NCBI RefSeq assembly: GCF_003925875.1
Contig: NZ_AP019309.1
Span: 2,790,001 to 2,854,000, forward strand
Source of the DNA: Intestinibaculum porci
Lineage (GTDB): Bacteria > Bacillota_I > Bacilli_A > Erysipelotrichales > Coprobacillaceae
Direction of reading: 5' to 3'
Length of the DNA: 64,000 nucleotides
How positions within the stretch are numbered: the first letter of the stretch is position 1; the number at the start of each line of letters is the position of its first letter. The notes below the pieces were generated by a model. It was not told the origin of the DNA. It searched no databases and saw only the letters and a program-made list of their open reading frames with translations. A program made the position numbers and the translations under genes. This document shows positions 15,156-22,700 of the stretch, piece by piece.

Positions 15156-16357
15156 ATGAAAGAATCAGATTTAAGTAAGTATTTAAAAAGGCTACGATTT
15201 AGAAGTTATGCTGCAGAGTCTTCTTTATGCGTATATCGATGAAAGCCAGATTTCTTATGCAAAGCTTAAAACGCTTTGCAAGGAAACTATTCCCTCTATT
15301 TTGATGGCAGACGAAAAATACCATCACTGATTTTAAAGGTGTCTCATAATACCGTAAAGTCTTATACAACGGCATTTAAGCTCTTATTAGATTTTCTATA
15401 TGAGGAAATGGGAATGAATCCAGATCGGATTGAATGCGATGATATTAATTCAGAAGTTATAATAGAATATCTTGAATGGATGGAAAAGACCAGAAATATA
15501 AGTATATCTACAAGGAACCAGCGTCTAGCCGCAATAAAGTCTTTCTATAAGTATGTTTCAAAAAAGTCACCATCAATGATTTATACATGCTCAAGCATTA
15601 TCGGATTAGACGCTAAGAAAGGTTCCAACAGAATGATAGCATATTTGGATATGGATCAAATAACGATTTTGATTGAATATTTAAAAGAATACAGAAGTAT
15701 GAAGGAACTTCTCCTGTTTTCTGTTCTTTATGAGACAGGCGCCCGAGTGAGTGAATTGATTTCTATCCATGTTTCTGATCTTAGATTAGATTAGACAAAG
15801 AGCACTCAATGATTGTACTCCATCGCAAAGGAAACAAAGTGCGCAGACTGCCGATCTCTAAAGATCTTAGCACGATGATAACATGTTATTTAAAAGGTGA
15901 TGATTATGTGGACTGGGATGGACTTGGCTATCTATTCTATTCACAGCAGCACGCACCTTATACAAGATTTGCAATCAATTATATGATAAACAGCTGGAAA
16001 AAAGGTGTGAATGAAATCTATCCTAATGCTCTTCCTGAACATATTCATCCACATATGATCAGACATTCAAAGGCAACACATCTTCTCGATGAAGGTGTAG
16101 ATCTCTATGAGATCAAAATGTTTTTAGGTCATGCCAGCATTGAAACCACTCAATTCTATGCAACCCCAAATTTAGGAAAAATCAAAGAAGATATTGAGAA
16201 AGCTGCAGCAAATATTCAGATAAATAATAAATATGATGAACTTAAAACAGGAGAGCTGATAAATTTCTTAGAGAACCTACTTAACATAAACACAAAAAGC
16301 TCCTCTTCTGTTTATCTATTTGAATTAATAATTCCTTCGATATCTCGTCCACCGTAG
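15156..16357 (+). pseudogene. Tyrosine recombinase (phage-integrase family), frameshifted
   Basis: Two fragments in different frames (15276-15794 and 15809-16357) together give a tyrosine recombinase: an N-terminal SAM-like core-binding part (NTVKSYTTAFKLLLDFL), the first catalytic Arg in ETGARVSELISIHV, then HPHMIRHSKATHLL, LGHASIETTQFYA with His-x-x-Arg, the second His and the Tyr. The break is at three tandem TTAGA copies (15781-15795); with two copies the frame reads LRLDKEHSMIVLHRKG without interruption. A further short frame from ATG 15156 suggests that the N terminus is also damaged. It lies beside a toxin-antitoxin pair in a small accessory region. Confidence 0.8.
15781..15795 (+). 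repeat. (TTAGA)3 pentanucleotide repeat causing the frameshift
   Basis: Three perfect copies of TTAGA inside the recombinase gene. The third copy creates a stop (TAG at 15792-15794). Deleting one copy joins the frames on both sides. Confidence 0.85.
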
Positions 16358-16641
16358 AATATTCGTGCTACTGTAACAGTCCTCTCCTTATCATCGACAA
16401 GATAATACACAATAAAGTTGTCTACCGGAAGCTGATGCATTTTCATCGAATGCCAAGGCTCCCATTCAACTAACGTATAACGAGCTGGCATGAAATCCAA
16501 TGAACGAACTTCCTTTCGTATGCGCCTCATCTGAGCTGCGGCTGTCTCCGGAACAAGAAGTTCATTCGCAATATATGAATAGATTTCACGTAAATCACCA
16601 AGTGCATCTACAGAATAGCCGACATTGTAGCTATCCGTCAT
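16312..16641 (-). CDS. RelE/ParE-family toxin
   Basis: A 109-residue protein of the RelE/ParE superfamily with the typical N-terminal GYSVDALGDLREIYSYIAN helices and the C-terminal strand RTVTVARIFYGGRD. Such toxins cleave mRNA on the ribosome (RelE type) or poison gyrase (ParE type); the sequence does not settle which. Its ATG overlaps the antitoxin stop by 4 bases. The 3' end overlaps the tail of the broken recombinase frame on the other strand. Confidence 0.85.
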   Translation of the reverse strand: MTDSYNVGYSVDALGDLREIYSYIANELLVPETAAAQMRRIRKEVRSLDFMPARYTLVEWEPWHSMKMHQLPVDNFIVYYLVDDKERTVTVARIFYGGRDIEGIINSNR

Positions 16642-16943
16642 ATGCCAAACTCCTTTGCAAGTACCGCATCGACTTCATCTGCAGAATATACCTTTCCTGC
16701 TTTGATGGAATCAACACCCTTTTGGAGTTCTGCATCAAGTTCTTCTCTGGTCATTGCACCAACAGCTAATGGCTTAGAAGAAGGAAGTTTCAATTCAAAC
16801 GGCATACCTTTTTTCAGTACGATCTGGCTATAAAGCATCTGAATTGCACTGGATGGAGAAATGCCAAGCTGAGAAAGAATGCTTTCGGCATTATCCTTGA
16901 GATTAGTATCTATTCTTGCATAGACAACGGATGTATTTGCCAT
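16638..16943 (-). CDS. RelB/DinJ-family antitoxin
   Basis: With the ATG at 16943, 7 bases after GGAGG, the protein has 101 residues. Its N-terminal half is a ribbon-helix-helix domain (TSVVYARIDTNLKDNAESIL, then ISPSSAIQMLYSQI) of the RelB/DinJ type, and its C-terminal half is the acidic toxin-binding tail. It precedes the toxin in an overlapping pair and should repress its own promoter at the palindrome upstream. Confidence 0.88.
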   Translation of the reverse strand: MANTSVVYARIDTNLKDNAESILSQLGISPSSAIQMLYSQIVLKKGMPFELKLPSSKPLAVGAMTREELDAELQKGVDSIKAGKVYSADEVDAVLAKEFGI

Positions 16944-16964
16944 AGTATCGCCTCCTTTTTCTTT

Positions 16965-16996
16965 ATTATATTTGCTTTTGCTTGCAATCGCAAGCA
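16965..16996 (-). promoter_or_regulatory. Toxin-antitoxin promoter with palindromic operator
   Basis: On the minus strand -35 TTGCGA (16993-16988), a 17-base spacer and -10 TATAAT (16970-16965) precede the antitoxin. The -35 lies inside a perfect palindrome, TGCTTGC-GATT-GCAAGCA (16979-16996), the expected place for an autoregulatory ribbon-helix-helix operator. Confidence 0.75.
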
Positions 16997-16999
16997 TTT

Positions 17000-17440
17000 G
17001 GATAGATTATTTGGAGATTATTTTGTGCATTTATTATATTTACATCTAGGGAGGCGATATTTATGGTTAAGGAGATTATGCAGTATCACAAAATATTAGG
17101 GACAATTGCAAAAAGATTCACTTAAATACGGTCAGTAGGCATTGGCTTATTCTGTGAGTGTATCTGTTTTTGAAAACCTACACAGGAATTCAATCCTATT
17201 GATGCGAAAACCATTTATTTTATAGCAGTTTGCAGTTTCGTAAACGGCTATACCTATCTTTGCGACTACAGGGCTTTCTTTGATCGGTCTCATCAGTCAT
17301 TGGCGTTTAACAGCTGATCTATGTCATGTGAATATCTTTCTCAGTTTATTGCGAGAGAAAAGAAACACGGCCTCTAAAGTTCCAGATGTTTCTTATTAAT
17401 GAGTCCTCAAAGTAGCTGGCGATAAGTGGTCAGAAATTAA
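17000..17440. other. Gene-poor remnant between toxin-antitoxin pair and deacetylase
   Basis: About 440 bases without a convincing gene. The only notable item is a 20-codon frame at 17063-17125 (MVKEIMQYHK...) with a good GGGAGG 9 bases upstream, which may be the stump of a lost gene. The rest has short frames broken by stops, as expected for decayed mobile DNA. No inverted repeats of an IS were seen. Confidence 0.4.
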
Positions 17441-17469
17441 AAATAACGATAGAATAGCTCTATCGTTAT
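17436..17469 (-). terminator. Terminator of the sigma/anti-sigma/deacetylase operon
   Basis: Minus-strand stem ATAACGATAGA / TCTATCGTTAT with a 5-base loop and T-rich tail, just after the deacetylase stop codon. Confidence 0.85.
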
Positions 17470-17478
17470 ATATGCATC

Positions 17479-18174
17479 TTAGTTTGCTGGTTTAAAACGG
17501 CATCTGGTATTGGCATTCACCTTTTTAAAGGTGTAGCCACGATCTTTATAATACTGAATGATCATTGGCAAAGCTTTAACTGTGTTATCTTTAGCGGACG
17601 TATCATGCATTAAAATGACAACGTTCTTCATTGGTACACAAGCATTTTTAGCGAGCTGTGTAGGTGATAATGGACGCCCCGTCGCATCACCTGTTTCCAC
17701 ATTCCAGTCAATATAGTTATACCCTTGAGCATTCATTGATCGCGTCAGTTTAGTCATCACTTTATAGCCATAATGACGAGAAACCGTATTGTTTGTGCCA
17801 CCAGGGAAACGGACTAATTTAGACTGATGTCCAGTTTCTTTGACTACAACTTTCTGAATTTGATCTAAATCCTTATTAAAAGCATTAACAGAGGCATAAA
17901 CCTTTGCATAGTTATGAGAATACGTATGAAGACCAATGGCATGCCCTTTTTGTGCCATCATCTTAATATAAGGGAAACACTGAGGCTGCTGACCAGTCAC
18001 AAAGAATGTCCCTTTAACATGATTTTTATCTAAAATATTTAAGACTTTTAACGTGTTGCGAGATGGTCCGTCATCAAATGTTAGATACACTGTCTTTTGT
18101 GTCTTAGCCAGCGCTGTTTGCGGGGCCATAAGCATCATCGCGGCCATGGCACTGATCATCATTTTTTTCATCAT
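17479..18174 (-). CDS. Secreted polysaccharide (peptidoglycan) deacetylase
   Basis: A 231-residue NodB-domain protein with an N-terminal signal peptide (KKMMISAMAAMMLMAPQTALA, cleavage about residue 23). Motifs of active carbohydrate esterase family 4 enzymes are present: TFDDGPS, the metal-binding HTYSH, RFPGG, and LMHDTSA near the C terminus. GGAGG lies upstream of the ATG. It is the last gene after an ECF sigma factor, an RsiV-like anti-sigma factor and two secreted RsiV-like proteins. In Enterococcus faecalis SigV controls the deacetylase PgdA in lysozyme resistance, so N-deacetylation of peptidoglycan is the likely job here. Confidence 0.87.
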   Translation of the reverse strand: MMKKMMISAMAAMMLMAPQTALAKTQKTVYLTFDDGPSRNTLKVLNILDKNHVKGTFFVTGQQPQCFPYIKMMAQKGHAIGLHTYSHNYAKVYASVNAFNKDLDQIQKVVVKETGHQSKLVRFPGGTNNTVSRHYGYKVMTKLTRSMNAQGYNYIDWNVETGDATGRPLSPTQLAKNACVPMKNVVILMHDTSAKDNTVKALPMIIQYYKDRGYTFKKVNANTRCRFKPAN

Positions 18175-18224
18175 TTTATTGCCTCCAAAAATTCATTTTT
18201 TTATGTCTGTTTTGATACATCCCT

Positions 18225-18256
18225 AAGCAATCATCTTTTGCCCATGATGACTGCTT
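18225..18256 (-). other. Intercistronic hairpin, copy 2
   Basis: On the minus strand the stem AAGCAGTCATC / GATGATTGCTT encloses the loop ATGGGCAAAA, between the second secreted RsiV-like gene and the deacetylase. It has no T tract. It resembles the hairpin at 18885-18918 in stem and loop. Confidence 0.6.
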
Positions 18257-18264
18257 CAATCCTT

Positions 18265-18858
18265 TTAAATATTCACTGTATACTGTAGTTCACCCTGGCT
18301 GTAAGGCGCGATCTGTCCTTCATCAAAGACGACCACCAGTTTATTATGCTTATTCATATAGAAGTTCGTCTTCGTATTAACAGAAGTAAATGACGTTCCT
18401 TTCGCCTGTTTCTTGATAGCTTTATTAACCATCACTTTGAAATCTTTTTTCTTAAACAGGTCCTTCATATTCACCTGTCTGCCATATAATTTATTGATCG
18501 TGTAATAACGTGACTGTGAAGCTGAGTCCCCAGCCGTGGTGGTGGCGGTGACTTTTAGTGAGAGATACTTATTATTATTTGTGAGAACGGTATAACCAAA
18601 GTCATAAGCCGCATGTTTTGACTTTCCATAGTCTTTCACAAAAGCTTTGTAGGTCTGTTTATTAAAAGCTTTGATCTGCTTATTAACACTTGCGGTATGA
18701 CTGCCTTTTAAGACGGGCATCATCATGGCCACGTTATTGCCTTTATTAAATGTCGTTGGGGTAATACTGTAACTGTGACTGACCGCCGCATTAGCTGCAG
18801 CTGGTCCGGCAAACATTGTTGCTACGACAACCGCTGATCCTAATAATTTCTTCATCAT
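18265..18858 (-). CDS. Secreted stand-alone RsiV-like (DUF3298/DUF4163) protein, copy B
   Basis: A 197-residue protein from the ATG at 18858, 7 bases after GAGGAGG. A signal peptide (KKLLGSAVVVATMFAGPAAANA) is followed by one domain matching the extracytoplasmic part of RsiV-type anti-sigma factors: VLTNNNKYLSLKVTATT, YYTINKLYGRQVNMKDLF, TNFYMNKHNKLVVVFDEG and IAPYSQGELQY. It has no transmembrane or sigma-binding part. It is about half identical by eye to its neighbour at 18926-19510 and related to the ectodomain of the anti-sigma factor at 19488-20312. It may bind lysozyme as a decoy or inhibitor; that is inference. Confidence 0.75.
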   Translation of the reverse strand: MMKKLLGSAVVVATMFAGPAAANAAVSHSYSITPTTFNKGNNVAMMMPVLKGSHTASVNKQIKAFNKQTYKAFVKDYGKSKHAAYDFGYTVLTNNNKYLSLKVTATTTAGDSASQSRYYTINKLYGRQVNMKDLFKKKDFKVMVNKAIKKQAKGTSFTSVNTKTNFYMNKHNKLVVVFDEGQIAPYSQGELQYTVNI

Positions 18859-18884
18859 ATTCAATCCTCCTCAATTTCATGTAT

Positions 18885-18918
18885 GCAGCGGTCATCTTTT
18901 ACCCACAATGACCGCTGC
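18885..18918 (-). other. Intercistronic hairpin, copy 1
   Basis: Perfect 11-base-pair stem GCAGCGGTCAT / ATGACCGCTGC with loop TGTGGGTAAAAG on the minus strand, between the two secreted RsiV-like genes, without a T tract. The same kind of hairpin follows the second copy, so the gene and its hairpin were probably duplicated together. Confidence 0.6.
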
Positions 18919-18925
18919 GTCCCTT

Positions 18926-19510
18926 TTAAATATTAACGGTATAACTTAATGCACCCTCGCTGTAAGGAGCGATTTCTCCTTCATCAAAGGTAAGCACTAA
19001 TTTATTGTGCTTATTAACATAGAACTTTGTTTCTTTATTAATAGATTTGAAAGACGTCCCTTTGGCCTGTTTCTTGACAGCTTTATTAATGATCTTCTTA
19101 TAATCTTTGCCTTTACCATAAAGAGACGCTAACGTCACCTGTTTACCGGTATCTTTATTTAAGGTGTAATACTTTGAAACCGTTGCACTATCACCGGCGG
19201 TTACAGTCGAAGAAACCTGCAAAGCTAAATACTTTTTGTTGTTGGTAAGCACTTTATAGTTAAAGTCGTAAGACGCGTACTTAGAGCCTTTGAATGTTTT
19301 CTTATAATCCTGGTACTGGGCTTTCTGAAAAGCCTGGATCTGCTTATTCATCGCAGCGGTGCCATAACCTTTCACCGTTGGCACTTTCATTGTAACCTGC
19401 TTCGTATTGGTATTTTGTGAGCTTACTTTGTATGAGTGTGTCGCTGCATGCACGACTGGGGCGCCAATAACCATAGCGGCTACGGTACTAATAAATAATT
19501 TTTTTAACAT
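18926..19510 (-). CDS. Secreted stand-alone RsiV-like (DUF3298/DUF4163) protein, copy A
   Basis: A 194-residue protein with a signal peptide (KKLFISTVAAMVIGAPVVHA) followed by a single RsiV-ectodomain-like domain: VLTNNKKYLALQVSST, KYYTLNKDTGKQVTLASLY, TKFYVNKHNKLVLTFDEG and IAPYSEGALSY. It lacks any membrane anchor or cytoplasmic part. Its ATG lies inside the end of the anti-sigma gene (23-base overlap), so the genes are cotranscribed and probably translationally coupled. It belongs to the same cassette as copy B. Confidence 0.75.
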   Translation of the reverse strand: MLKKLFISTVAAMVIGAPVVHAATHSYKVSSQNTNTKQVTMKVPTVKGYGTAAMNKQIQAFQKAQYQDYKKTFKGSKYASYDFNYKVLTNNKKYLALQVSSTVTAGDSATVSKYYTLNKDTGKQVTLASLYGKGKDYKKIINKAVKKQAKGTSFKSINKETKFYVNKHNKLVLTFDEGEIAPYSEGALSYTVNI

Positions 19511-20312
19511 GTTCTTTAAGTCCTTTCATTACTGTTTTGGTGGAAATTGTAAATTCTGGAGTGCCTGAACTCATTGGTCCAATGTCTCCCTGCTGGAATA
19601 CCATCACCAGCTGATGTTTGTTATTGATATAAAATTGTGTATTCTGATCAATTGTCTTGAATGGAGTTACTAAATCATCACCTTCTTTAAAATACTGTCC
19701 TTTGGTATCACTATTGATCACTTTTAAAACAGAGCTATTGATCACCTTCTTATAATCATACCCTTGTTTAAATAAGTCTTTGATCGTTACTGTTTTACCG
19801 GTTGCTTTATCAATGTTGTAATAGTATACTTTACGGTCGCTATCGGCTGCTGTCGTCAATGATTCTACCTTTAAGGTAAACCAGTATTTGTTGTTGGTGA
19901 CAACCTTATAATCTATCTTTAAAGATGCATTCTTCGCATTGCCAACAGCTTTCTTGAATTCACTTAAGGCCTGCGTCGTCCATTCTTTCACTGATTTATT
20001 GATATAAGTCACGCTCTGTGAATGTTTCTTGACCTGCGGAATATTTACATCCGTATTATCATCCTGATAGTGATAAATTGATGTCACCTTGAAGATCTCA
20101 CCAACGACCGGCAGATCATATAAATGCTGAGCAACACTCGCATTGATATTAGGCAGGACGAATAATACTAAGGCAAAGACCGCGATCACTAATCCTTTAT
20201 AATGTTTTTTCTTATGTGGCAAAGCTGCCTCAAACTTGCGCTTACCGCTCGTACTCATCTGCGGTGCGTGAGCGCGTAAATCCTTTTGCAGCTGGCGATC
20301 AAACTTATCCAT
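19488..20312 (-). CDS. RsiV-like membrane anti-sigma factor
   Basis: A 274-residue protein with a short cytoplasmic N terminus (MDKFDRQLQKDLRAHAP, the sigma-binding part), one membrane segment (YKGLVIAVFALVLFVLPNI, about residues 38-57) and an extracytoplasmic DUF4163/DUF3298 region (ITYKVVTNN-like strand, YYYNIDKATGKTVTIKDLF, TQFYINNKHQLVMVFQQG, IGPMSSGTPEF). This is the layout of RsiV, which binds lysozyme outside the cell and is then cleaved to free SigV. The start overlaps the sigma factor stop by 8 bases. Confidence 0.85.
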   Translation of the reverse strand: MDKFDRQLQKDLRAHAPQMSTSGKRKFEAALPHKKKHYKGLVIAVFALVLFVLPNINASVAQHLYDLPVVGEIFKVTSIYHYQDDNTDVNIPQVKKHSQSVTYINKSVKEWTTQALSEFKKAVGNAKNASLKIDYKVVTNNKYWFTLKVESLTTAADSDRKVYYYNIDKATGKTVTIKDLFKQGYDYKKVINSSVLKVINSDTKGQYFKEGDDLVTPFKTIDQNTQFYINNKHQLVMVFQQGDIGPMSSGTPEFTISTKTVMKGLKEHVKKIIY

Positions 20313-20793
20313 AATAACCCTCCAAATCGCTTTTTAATTCTTTCCTGGCGCGTGATAATCGCTGTTTAACATTATCACGACTAATTTCTAAGGCTTCTGC
20401 AATGTCAGGAATCTTCAATCCCTGATAGTAGTAGAGAACCACCACTTCCCGATATTTACGATCTAATTTATTAACCGCATCCCAAACTGTCATATTCTGT
20501 TCATGATCAATATCACTGTGGGGATCCTCTATTTCGATTTCATCATCTAAACTCAGATTCCTGAGTTTGATGATTCTGTAACATTCATTCTTTAGAATTC
20601 TAAAGATCCATGGCTTAAACTTATCTTTCGATGATAACGCATCAAGATTTTTATAAGCCTTCATCACTGCATTCTGCACCGCATCTTCCGCATCACTTTC
20701 ATTTCTCAAAATGCTTAAAGCGGTGACATACAAGCCATCCTGTAAAGCTTTGGCCTGCTTGCTAAACCAGCGATCTCTTAACAACATCTGCAT
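20305..20793 (-). CDS. ECF RNA polymerase sigma factor, SigV-like
   Basis: A 162-residue group IV sigma factor. Region 2 has ILRNESDAEDAVQNAVMKAY and FKPWIFRILKNECYR; region 4 has KLDRKYREVVVLYYYQGL followed by the helix-turn-helix IPDIAEALEISRDNVKQR. It heads a five-gene operon with an RsiV-like anti-sigma factor and a peptidoglycan deacetylase, as SigV systems do. A SigV-type -35 core (GGAAAC at about 20831-20836, minus strand) lies upstream, but I cannot find a -10 at the correct spacing. Confidence 0.88.
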   Translation of the reverse strand: MQMLLRDRWFSKQAKALQDGLYVTALSILRNESDAEDAVQNAVMKAYKNLDALSSKDKFKPWIFRILKNECYRIIKLRNLSLDDEIEIEDPHSDIDHEQNMTVWDAVNKLDRKYREVVVLYYYQGLKIPDIAEALEISRDNVKQRLSRARKELKSDLEGYYG

Positions 20794-20810
20794 TTCATGT
20801 TTCTCCCTTC

Positions 20811-20851
20811 ATCAGACAATCATCTGATGTTTCCAATTTATAGAGCTCTAT
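20811..20851 (-). promoter_or_regulatory. Inverted repeats upstream of the ECF sigma gene
   Basis: ATCAGA / TCTGAT around 6 bases (20811-20828) and a perfect 12-base palindrome ATAGAGCTCTAT (20840-20851) lie within 60 bases of the sigma factor start. They are possible regulator or leader structures; no factor can be named. Confidence 0.35.
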
Positions 20852-20860
20852 ATTTGCGGA

Positions 20861-21265
20861 AAGGTGACAAACTTTTTCATCTTCGCCGAAAATTTTTGCA
20901 TCACTTGTAAAGACTTCTTTTCGTCTTCACTTATAAGAGCAGCTTCACCAGCCTTTGGTGACAAACTTTTATAAAGTTTTTTAACTCCGTAAAGACTTCT
21001 CTCGTCTTCACTTATAAGAGCAGCTTCACCAGCCTTTGGTGACAAACTTTTATAAAGTTTTTTAACTCCGTAAAGACTTCTCTCGTCTTCACTTATAAGA
21101 GCAGCTCCACCAGCATTTGGTGACAAACTTCTGTAAAGTTTTTCTTTCCTAGCCCTTACACTTATAAGAGCAGCTCCACCAGCATTTGGTGACAAACTTC
21201 TGTAAAGTTTTTCTTTCCTAGCCCTTACACTTATAAGAGACATAGAGATCATCAAAGGTGACAAA
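20861..21265. repeat. Tandem repeat array between the sigma operon and rpoD
   Basis: GGTGACAAA occurs six times, at 20863, 20957, 21038, 21119, 21188 and 21257, giving periods of 94, 81, 81, 69 and 69 bases. The partner block ACTTATAAGAG occurs at 20929, 21010, 21091, 21160 and 21229. Each unit contains small hairpins, TCACCA / TGGTGA and AAACTTT / AAAGTTT. The 81- and 69-base units share their cores but differ in the linker. Because the periods are multiples of three, the minus strand stays open for 142 codons (LYKSLSPKAGEAAL repeated), but its only start is a TTG in the rpoD terminator, so I read it as DNA repeat, not a gene. Confidence 0.85.
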
Positions 21266-21290
21266 AAGATCTGCAAAAACTGCAGATCTT
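21261..21290 (-). terminator. Terminator of rpoD
   Basis: Perfect 10-base-pair stem AAGATCTGCA / TGCAGATCTT with loop GTTTT on the minus strand, followed by TTTG. It overlaps the rpoD stop codon. Confidence 0.85.
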
Positions 21291-22431
21291 ACTGTACATT
21301 CAAGAAATCATGTAATTGTCCCTTCGCAAAGCGACGTAATTTACGTAATGCTTTCGCTTCAATCTGACGAATACGTTCCCGGGTGACATTAAATTCTTTC
21401 CCCACTTCTTCTAAAGTCTGAGGATTTTGTCCATCTAAGCCAAAACGCATCCGAATAACCTGTTCTTCACGGGGATCCAAACGTTTGAGCGCTTCATCCA
21501 TTTCATCTTTTAACGCTTCATTATCCGTAAACTGCGTTGGAGAAATGGTATTATCATCAGAAATGAAATCCCCTAAAGAAGAATCTTCTTCATCTCCAAC
21601 CGGTGTTTCTAATGATGTTGGTTCTAGTGACAGGTCTAAAAGCTTACGAACCTTTTCTTCACTCACTCCTAAAGCCGTGGCTAATTCCTTTTCTGTTGGT
21701 TCACGGCTTAACTTCTGCGCTAAGTCACGCTGCACCTTTTTGGCCTTATTAATGTTTTCAAACATATGTACCGGAATACGAATCGTGCGCCCGCTATCAG
21801 CGATGGCGCGTGTCATCGCCTGTTTGATCCACCAGGTCGCATACGTTGAAAACTTAAAACCCATATCCGGATTATACTTTTCCGCTGCTCGCTCTAAACC
21901 GATATTGCCTTCCTGAATCAGGTCCATCAAAGCCAAGCCACGGCCACGGTAACGTTTCGCAATCGAAACCACCAAACGTAAGTTGGCATTAATCAATTCA
22001 TCTTTCGCTTTCTTATCGCCCTGCTGGATGCGTTTGCCTAAAGCTACTTCCTGATCATGTGATAATAATGGGTATTCCCCAATCGCACTCAAGTAGTTTT
22101 TAACGTTATCACTGGTCTTGACTTCCTGACTCATCTGATAGTCCGGCGTATAAACCTTCTTGTCATCATGAATATCATCAACGGATAAATCTACATCAAA
22201 GTCAAGATCATCAGTCTCATCACTTGCCTCATCATCCATCTCGTCTTCTCCAAGATTGAAATCCGATCCCTGCAAATACCCTTTGTCAATAATATAATCA
22301 ATCAGCTGTGATGAAACATCATCATCTAAATCATATTTTTCTAAAATGTAATCAACGTTTTGCGCCGTTAATTGGTTATTATGTCTTTCCGCATAGTCAT
22401 CAATAGCTTTTTCAATATCACTCAGTACCAT
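21289..22431 (-). CDS. rpoD: Primary (housekeeping) RNA polymerase sigma factor
   Basis: A 380-residue RpoD/SigA. The N-terminal region 1.1 is followed by an acidic stretch (residues about 58-85), then region 1.2 [15 protein letters not shown], region 2 with [24 protein letters not shown] and [17 protein letters not shown], region 3, and region 4 with RFGLDG and [20 protein letters not shown]. The usual NIGLMKAVEKF is [11 protein letters not shown] here. dnaG, the common upstream neighbour in Bacillota, is absent; the upstream neighbour is the divergent addB. Confidence 0.95.
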
Positions 22432-22673
22432 ATTTCATCACTCCTCTTATGGTTTCATTTTATCATTTTTTAAAATCATTGAGAAGTCATTCTATCCGGA
22501 ATATTCACCGTATTTCCATTTTCGCATATGCTTAATAAGCATGCCTATAAGCCCTTTAGAGAAATCTTTATATTATAACACAAATCTTTAAAAATATTTT
22601 TTATTTTCGTATATGAAAGGGAGTTTTCTCCTTTTCATTTACGATTTTTCACTTTTTTTCAAAAAGCGTATTA

Positions 22674-22679
22674 TATAAT
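22674..22679 (+). promoter_or_regulatory. -10 box of the addBA promoter
   Basis: A perfect TATAAT 21 bases before the preferred addB ATG. The upstream stretch is T-rich and a -35 is not clear. Confidence 0.5.
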
Positions 22680-22700
22680 AAGGTTAAAGGAGAAATGAAC

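Follow-up and report, generated by a model that had tools for sequence, protein, structure and literature searches.

A sigV-rsiV-type operon of Intestinibaculum porci with two secreted copies of the RsiV sensor domain

The anti-sigma factor RsiV carries, behind its membrane helix, a segment that shields the signal-peptidase site until lysozyme is bound (PMC6066255), and its ectodomain alone inhibits lysozyme at a ratio of 1:1 (PMC5014341). In the co-crystal of RsiV and lysozyme, S169, P259 and Y261 have been found to be critical, with Y255 and others listed as contacts (PMC5014341), and both Y255 and Y261 touch the catalytic Glu35 of lysozyme. A free form of this sensor domain has been described in Clostridioides difficile as part of csfV-rsiV-lbpA, where LbpA is reported to be an RsiV-like, membrane-bound protein without a sigma-binding domain that binds lysozyme and confers low-level lysozyme resistance (PMC9044953). 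Here, we describe a five-gene cassette in a window of 64,000 nt from Intestinibaculum porci (GCF_003925875.1, NZ_AP019309.1 positions 2,790,001-2,854,000; the genome of 3.2 Mb is labelled G000), in which genes for a SigV-like sigma factor and an RsiV-like anti-sigma factor are followed by two secreted copies of the RsiV ectodomain (copies A and B) and by a peptidoglycan deacetylase. An earlier, sequence-only reading of this DNA had known of no described system with such an arrangement, a claim that fails in view of csfV-rsiV-lbpA (PMC9044953). By analogy to LbpA, we consider it somewhat probable that copies A and B act as traps or inhibitors which bind, and thereby disarm, the wall-attacking enzyme sensed by RsiV, most likely lysozyme or another muramidase.

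The cassette is located on the minus strand and is transcribed in the order sigV, rsiV, copy A, copy B, deacetylase. Because sigV and rsiV overlap by 8 bp, rsiV and copy A overlap by 23 bp, and the remaining gaps measure only 67 bp (copy A to copy B) and 90 bp (copy B to deacetylase), the five genes very probably form a single operon. Pfam, NCBIfam and PDB searches have given concordant domain assignments, which bear out, at the same positions, the sequence-only reading of the genes as an extracytoplasmic function (ECF) sigma factor, an RsiV-like protein, two secreted ectodomains and a deacetylase; architecture and domain searches also confirm the description as a SigV-RsiV-type operon carrying free sensor-domain copies. 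The sigma factor (20305..20793, minus strand, 162 aa) has been matched by Pfam Sigma70_r2 and Sigma70_r4_2 and by NCBIfam SigV with 85.9 bits. The RsiV-like protein (19488..20312, minus strand, 274 aa) has been matched by PF11738 with 56 bits, by NCBIfam RsiV with an E-value of 8.7e-43, by the RsiV-lysozyme structure 5jen with an E-value of 3e-16, and weakly by DUF4179. It consists of a cytoplasmic part, one membrane segment, a signal-peptidase-like site (SVA/Q), an LPVVGEIFKV segment and the DUF3298 ectodomain, so that the guarded anti-sigma architecture expected of a sigma-V/RsiV system, including a guard-type segment (SVA/QHLYDLPVVGEIFKV), is found beside sigV. The wall-modifying resistance enzyme of such a system lies inside the operon as well, in the form of the secreted polysaccharide (peptidoglycan) deacetylase (17479..18174, minus strand, 231 aa; PF01522, 98.9 bits) with the motifs TFDDGP, HTYSH, RFPGG and LMHD. 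One site-2 protease homologue is encoded in the genome.

Copy A (18926..19510, minus strand) comprises 194 aa with a signal peptide to about residue 22 and has been matched by PF11738 with 35.5 bits and by 5jen with an E-value of 4e-10, and copy B (18265..18858, minus strand) comprises 197 aa and has been matched by PF11738 with 35.4 bits, with an additional weak PdaC (DUF4163) match; its start has been taken as ATG, a TTG 6 bases upstream being less likely. Both score above the PF11738 cut-off. Each is made up only of the ectodomain behind a signal peptide whose cleavage site is of the AxA type; cysteines and any recognizable anchor are absent, and together with rsiV they are the only PF11738 genes of the genome. 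Since neither contains a cytoplasmic domain or the amphipathic guard found in RsiV, constitutive export and cleavage are to be expected. The copies are 56-58% identical to each other and 34-37% identical to RsiV. Their mature forms carry net charges of +19 (copy A, pI 9.8) and +18 (copy B, pI about 9.95), compared with +5 and +6 for the RsiV ectodomains of the genus, -8 for RsiV of Bacillus subtilis and -14 to -34 for most other RsiV ectodomains. An AlphaFold model of copy A, based on three sequences of the window, is of low quality (pLDDT 51), and the Foldseek ranking obtained with it, 5jen first and then 4e72, 3s5t and 3cyg, is consistent with the sequence search and carries little weight. 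A scan of the genome contigs with copy A as query has found no relative.

The same layout has been found only in the sole other genome of the genus (G019), as sigV-rsiV-SEC1-SEC2-SEC3-deacetylase with three tandem secreted copies, and since the operon is conserved there at 49-82% protein identity, its layout is not due to chance. Between these two genomes the secreted copies have changed faster at nonsynonymous sites (pN 0.25-0.31) than sigV and the deacetylase (pN 0.13), and nonsynonymous differences are still far below synonymous ones (pS about 0.8); pN and pS are given in place of a dN/dS ratio, as synonymous sites are saturated. PF11738 occurs in 13 of the 43 genomes of the family; samples of the order and of the phylum have contained it in 45 of 295 and 19 of 392 genomes, respectively. 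The order for which the sequence-only reading suggested a survey, sigV-rsiV followed by stand-alone DUF3298 genes, is present in G019 and C. difficile. In G374, a genome of another family, the free copy is encoded just upstream of sigV-rsiV-deacetylase; it is RsiV-like, measures 238 aa and has no cytoplasmic domain. G011, the closest genome outside the genus whose sensor is related, has sigV-rsiV alone. In other genomes, sigV-rsiV adjoins a deacetylase gene (L030, L031). At L028, checked with Pfam, it lies directly behind genes for an MBOAT acyltransferase and a GDSL lipase-like protein, and L035 and L040 look alike; the pair may serve wall O-acetylation.

The origin of the free copies has been addressed with a maximum-likelihood tree of ectodomains, from which PdaC/PgdA-type fusions are absent. 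All copies of the window and of G019 form one clade (100/100). Its sister group is RsiV of the same genus (99/95), and RsiV of G011 branches outside (98/92); by this placement, the copies derive from the rsiV lineage of the genus itself. C. difficile LbpA, by sequence a signal peptide plus an ectodomain that is 70% identical to its own RsiV, is nested among the RsiV proteins of C. difficile (100/100), and the free copy of G374 pairs with the RsiV of that genome (94/86). Constraining the genus copies and LbpA to one clade has been rejected (p-AU 1.56e-05), as has a constraint that also includes the G374 copy (p-AU 1.1e-7). Judged from the tree, the window copies do not share descent with LbpA as free copies and are not LbpA orthologues, yet they may work like it, and free copies in such operons would have arisen at least twice independently (in the Intestinibaculum genus and in Clostridioides), with G374 as a third case. 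In C. difficile, gene conversion between neighbours could mimic a separate origin; in the window, recent conversion is no issue, because RsiV and the copies share so little identity. In C. difficile strain 173070 (L063 3660-4532, minus strand), lbpA is missing and rsiV bears an lbpA-type 3' end, which suggests that lbpA has been lost through a recombination deletion between the two genes.

Repeated independent origin suggests a useful role for the free copies, and several further points count for trapping: S169 and P259 are retained in the alignment of RsiV, copy A and copy B, the RsiV ectodomain by itself is an inhibitor, the layout recurs in G019 with nonsynonymous well below synonymous differences, and a deacetylase lies within the sigV-rsiV operon also in C. 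difficile and G374. The proposal of the sequence-only reading that the secreted proteins could inhibit lysozyme comes near to what is, by the LbpA analogy, the best-supported role, that of a lysozyme-binding protein, but binding itself cannot be assumed, and a number of findings weigh against it. Throughout the genus, in RsiV as well as in all free copies of the two species, Y255 has been replaced by G and Y261 by S, and the loop carrying D225 is absent from the copies; a tyrosine at position 260 of the copies might stand in for Y261. The mature copies are strongly basic compared with the acidic RsiV of B. subtilis, and lysozyme itself is cationic. Copies A and B look unanchored, whereas LbpA is described as membrane-bound. 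Lysozyme binding is also not universal among DUF4163/DUF3298 proteins, as Rv1980c does not bind (PMC5014341). Furthermore, the 85.9 bits of the window sigma factor do not reach the curated NCBIfam SigV cut-off of 190 (C. difficile CsfV: 204 bits), and RsiV, with 146.7 bits, stays under the curated NCBIfam RsiV cut-off of 250. Since both Glu35-contacting tyrosines have been replaced and the copies are strongly basic, lysozyme is an uncertain ligand of the sensor and copies of this genus.

One may tentatively consider, as a special case of trapping, that the specificity of RsiV and that of its free copies have moved jointly away from animal c-type lysozyme, towards, e.g., a muramidase of bacteria or phages or one of a non-c type. 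The substitutions common to RsiV and all free copies would fit such a shift, as the outgroup G011 retains Y261, most relatives retain YE(V/I)APGYMG, and RsiV and LbpA of C. difficile have both kept the two tyrosines; but S169 and P259 are preserved, Y261A alone does not weaken binding by B. subtilis RsiV (PMC5014341), and the changes may be simple inheritance from the common ancestor of sensor and copies.

If copies A and B do trap the enzyme that RsiV senses, we infer for ligand, trapping and regulation that binding of the ligand to RsiV would lead to destruction of RsiV by signal peptidase and the site-2 protease, and that the sigma factor, once released, would fire an array of promoter-like motifs upstream of sigV and also a gene for a DUF4300 protein elsewhere. 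Expression of the operon would then supply further RsiV along with both traps and the deacetylase, and the traps would sequester the enzyme while the deacetylase renders the wall resistant. The array lies between rpoD and sigV on the minus strand and consists of a two-box motif, TTTGTCACC-N17-CTCTTATAAG or close to it, of which the copy nearest sigV, TTTGTCACC-N17-CTCT(ATAA) at 20842..20871, is conserved in G019 and present as a variant in G011; five further tandem copies follow at 20936-20965, 21017-21046, 21098-21127, 21167-21196 and 21236-21265, in repeats of 81 and 69 bp. The pattern TTTGTCACC-N13-18-CTCT has been matched at 6 sites of the window and at no site in 100 shuffles, and the whole genome has given 7 matches against 0 control matches. 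The motif is a putative promoter of the window sigma factor; it is dissimilar to the sigma-V consensus of B. subtilis, TGAAAC / CGTC. An additional motif-like match at G000:C1:741908 has been taken as chance, being antisense within an ORF.

With 22 bp between its end and the gene start, the seventh motif (G000:C1:3210212-3210241) precedes a gene located behind jag that encodes a secreted DUF4300 protein (L082 644-1483, minus strand; PF14133, 262 bits). A relative with solved structure exists (9ow2, 'Exported protein', E-value 3e-47), and no paper giving a function of DUF4300 has been found. In G019, the orthologous DUF4300 gene bears the same motif in a different neighbourhood, and the array upstream of sigV contains four first boxes at irregular spacings (152, 59 and 83 bp); in G519, a DUF4300 gene is located between rsiV and the deacetylase gene. 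The observations in the three genomes agree with a small candidate regulon of the sigV operon and the DUF4300 gene. An ORF of 142 aa across the repeat array (20848-21276) has been rejected as a gene, as the G019 spacings are not multiples of three. The most far-reaching form of the ligand shift, in which sensor and copies would both have abandoned the c-type lysozyme interface to become a matched receptor and soluble trap for another wall-attacking enzyme, driven by up to six sigma-specific promoters that also control the unlinked DUF4300 gene, is doubtful at present.

It is unlikely that copies A and B are wall-binding helpers, i.e., basic proteins that stay in the anionic wall and shield peptidoglycan or partner the deacetylase like a split PdaC/PgdA, for which lysozyme binding would be unnecessary. 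Such a role would account for the high net charge, the lost lysozyme-contact residues, the weak PdaC match of copy B and the order of copies followed by deacetylase that is kept in both species, and it finds a parallel in the fusions of DUF3298 with a deacetylase in relatives (L098, L099). The copies, on the other hand, descend from the rsiV lineage of the genus, albeit in a tree that does not hold such fusions, lbpA and pdaV stand at opposite ends of the C. difficile operon, and the window deacetylase, with a net charge of +18, is as basic as the copies, so that a high charge may be widespread among the exported proteins of I. porci. Quite improbable is the further suggestion of the sequence-only reading that the copies are threshold-setting decoys, which would compete with RsiV for the ligand and delay activation or shut the response off by negative feedback, with any effect on survival secondary: sensor and copies share fold and operon, so that trapped ligand would be withheld from RsiV, and the tandem copy number varies by species (2 vs 3), but LbpA, the only studied analogue, is reported neither to activate nor to regulate sigma-V (PMC9044953).

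Two hairpins have been observed within the operon, GCAGCGGTCAT...ATGACCGCTGC between copies A and B (18885..18918, minus strand; RNA fold -21.7 kcal/mol) and AAGCAGTCATC...GATGATTGCTT between copy B and the deacetylase (18225..18256, minus strand; RNA fold of the gap -17.6 kcal/mol). They are related and stand one behind each secreted-copy gene, which looks like duplication of a gene together with its hairpin. In G019, the corresponding gaps are too short to accommodate such hairpins, and no Rfam family has been found in 16900-22700. Just downstream of the operon, two overlapping small genes (16312-16997) resemble, by eye, a RelE/ParE toxin (16312-16641) and a RelB/DinJ antitoxin (16638-16997), and a tyrosine recombinase (integrase-like) frame at 15276-16357, likewise recognized by eye, is split into two ORFs (15276-15794 and 15809-16357) and probably broken.

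To our knowledge, few dedicated lysozyme inhibitors are known in Gram-positive bacteria. If copies A and B are indeed traps, receptor-derived proteins of this kind would be a general Gram-positive answer to wall-attacking enzymes, reached by repeated conversion of a sensor ectodomain; the shared interface change would offer a direct test of whether the specificities of sensor and trap co-evolve, and the promoter-like motif adds DUF4300 as a candidate member of the regulon.

Compared with known systems, the locus shares with B. subtilis sigV-rsiV-oatA an ECF sigma factor, an RsiV with signal-peptidase site and guarding segment, and a wall-modifying enzyme in the operon, but the B. subtilis enzyme is an O-acetyltransferase instead of a deacetylase and no free ectodomain is known in that operon (PMC5014341 and literature on the operon content). 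PdaC/PgdA-type deacetylases likewise link a DUF4163/DUF3298 domain with peptidoglycan deacetylation, as a single fused protein in L098 and L099, whereas the window holds separate, rsiV-derived proteins. A secreted or exported DUF3298 fold is also seen in the stand-alone structures 3CYG, 3S5T and 4E72 and in Rv1980c/Mpt64, none of which, as far as we know, belongs to a sigma-factor operon; Rv1980c has been shown not to bind lysozyme (PMC5014341). Closest is the C. difficile operon, where, as in the window, a free RsiV-type ectodomain without sigma-binding domain shares the operon with sigV, rsiV and a peptidoglycan deacetylase. In named C. difficile genomes the order is pdaV, prsA-like, csfV, rsiV, lbpA, with the one lbpA directly behind rsiV and the deacetylase and PrsA-like genes upstream, while Intestinibaculum has two or three basic, unanchored copies and the deacetylase last; LbpA keeps the main lysozyme-contact tyrosines, and the window copies have a changed interface. 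The arrangement itself is thus known from LbpA; novelty lies in the independent derivation of the free copies, their occurrence in tandem, the altered binding face common to sensor and copies, and the promoter-like array linked to DUF4300.

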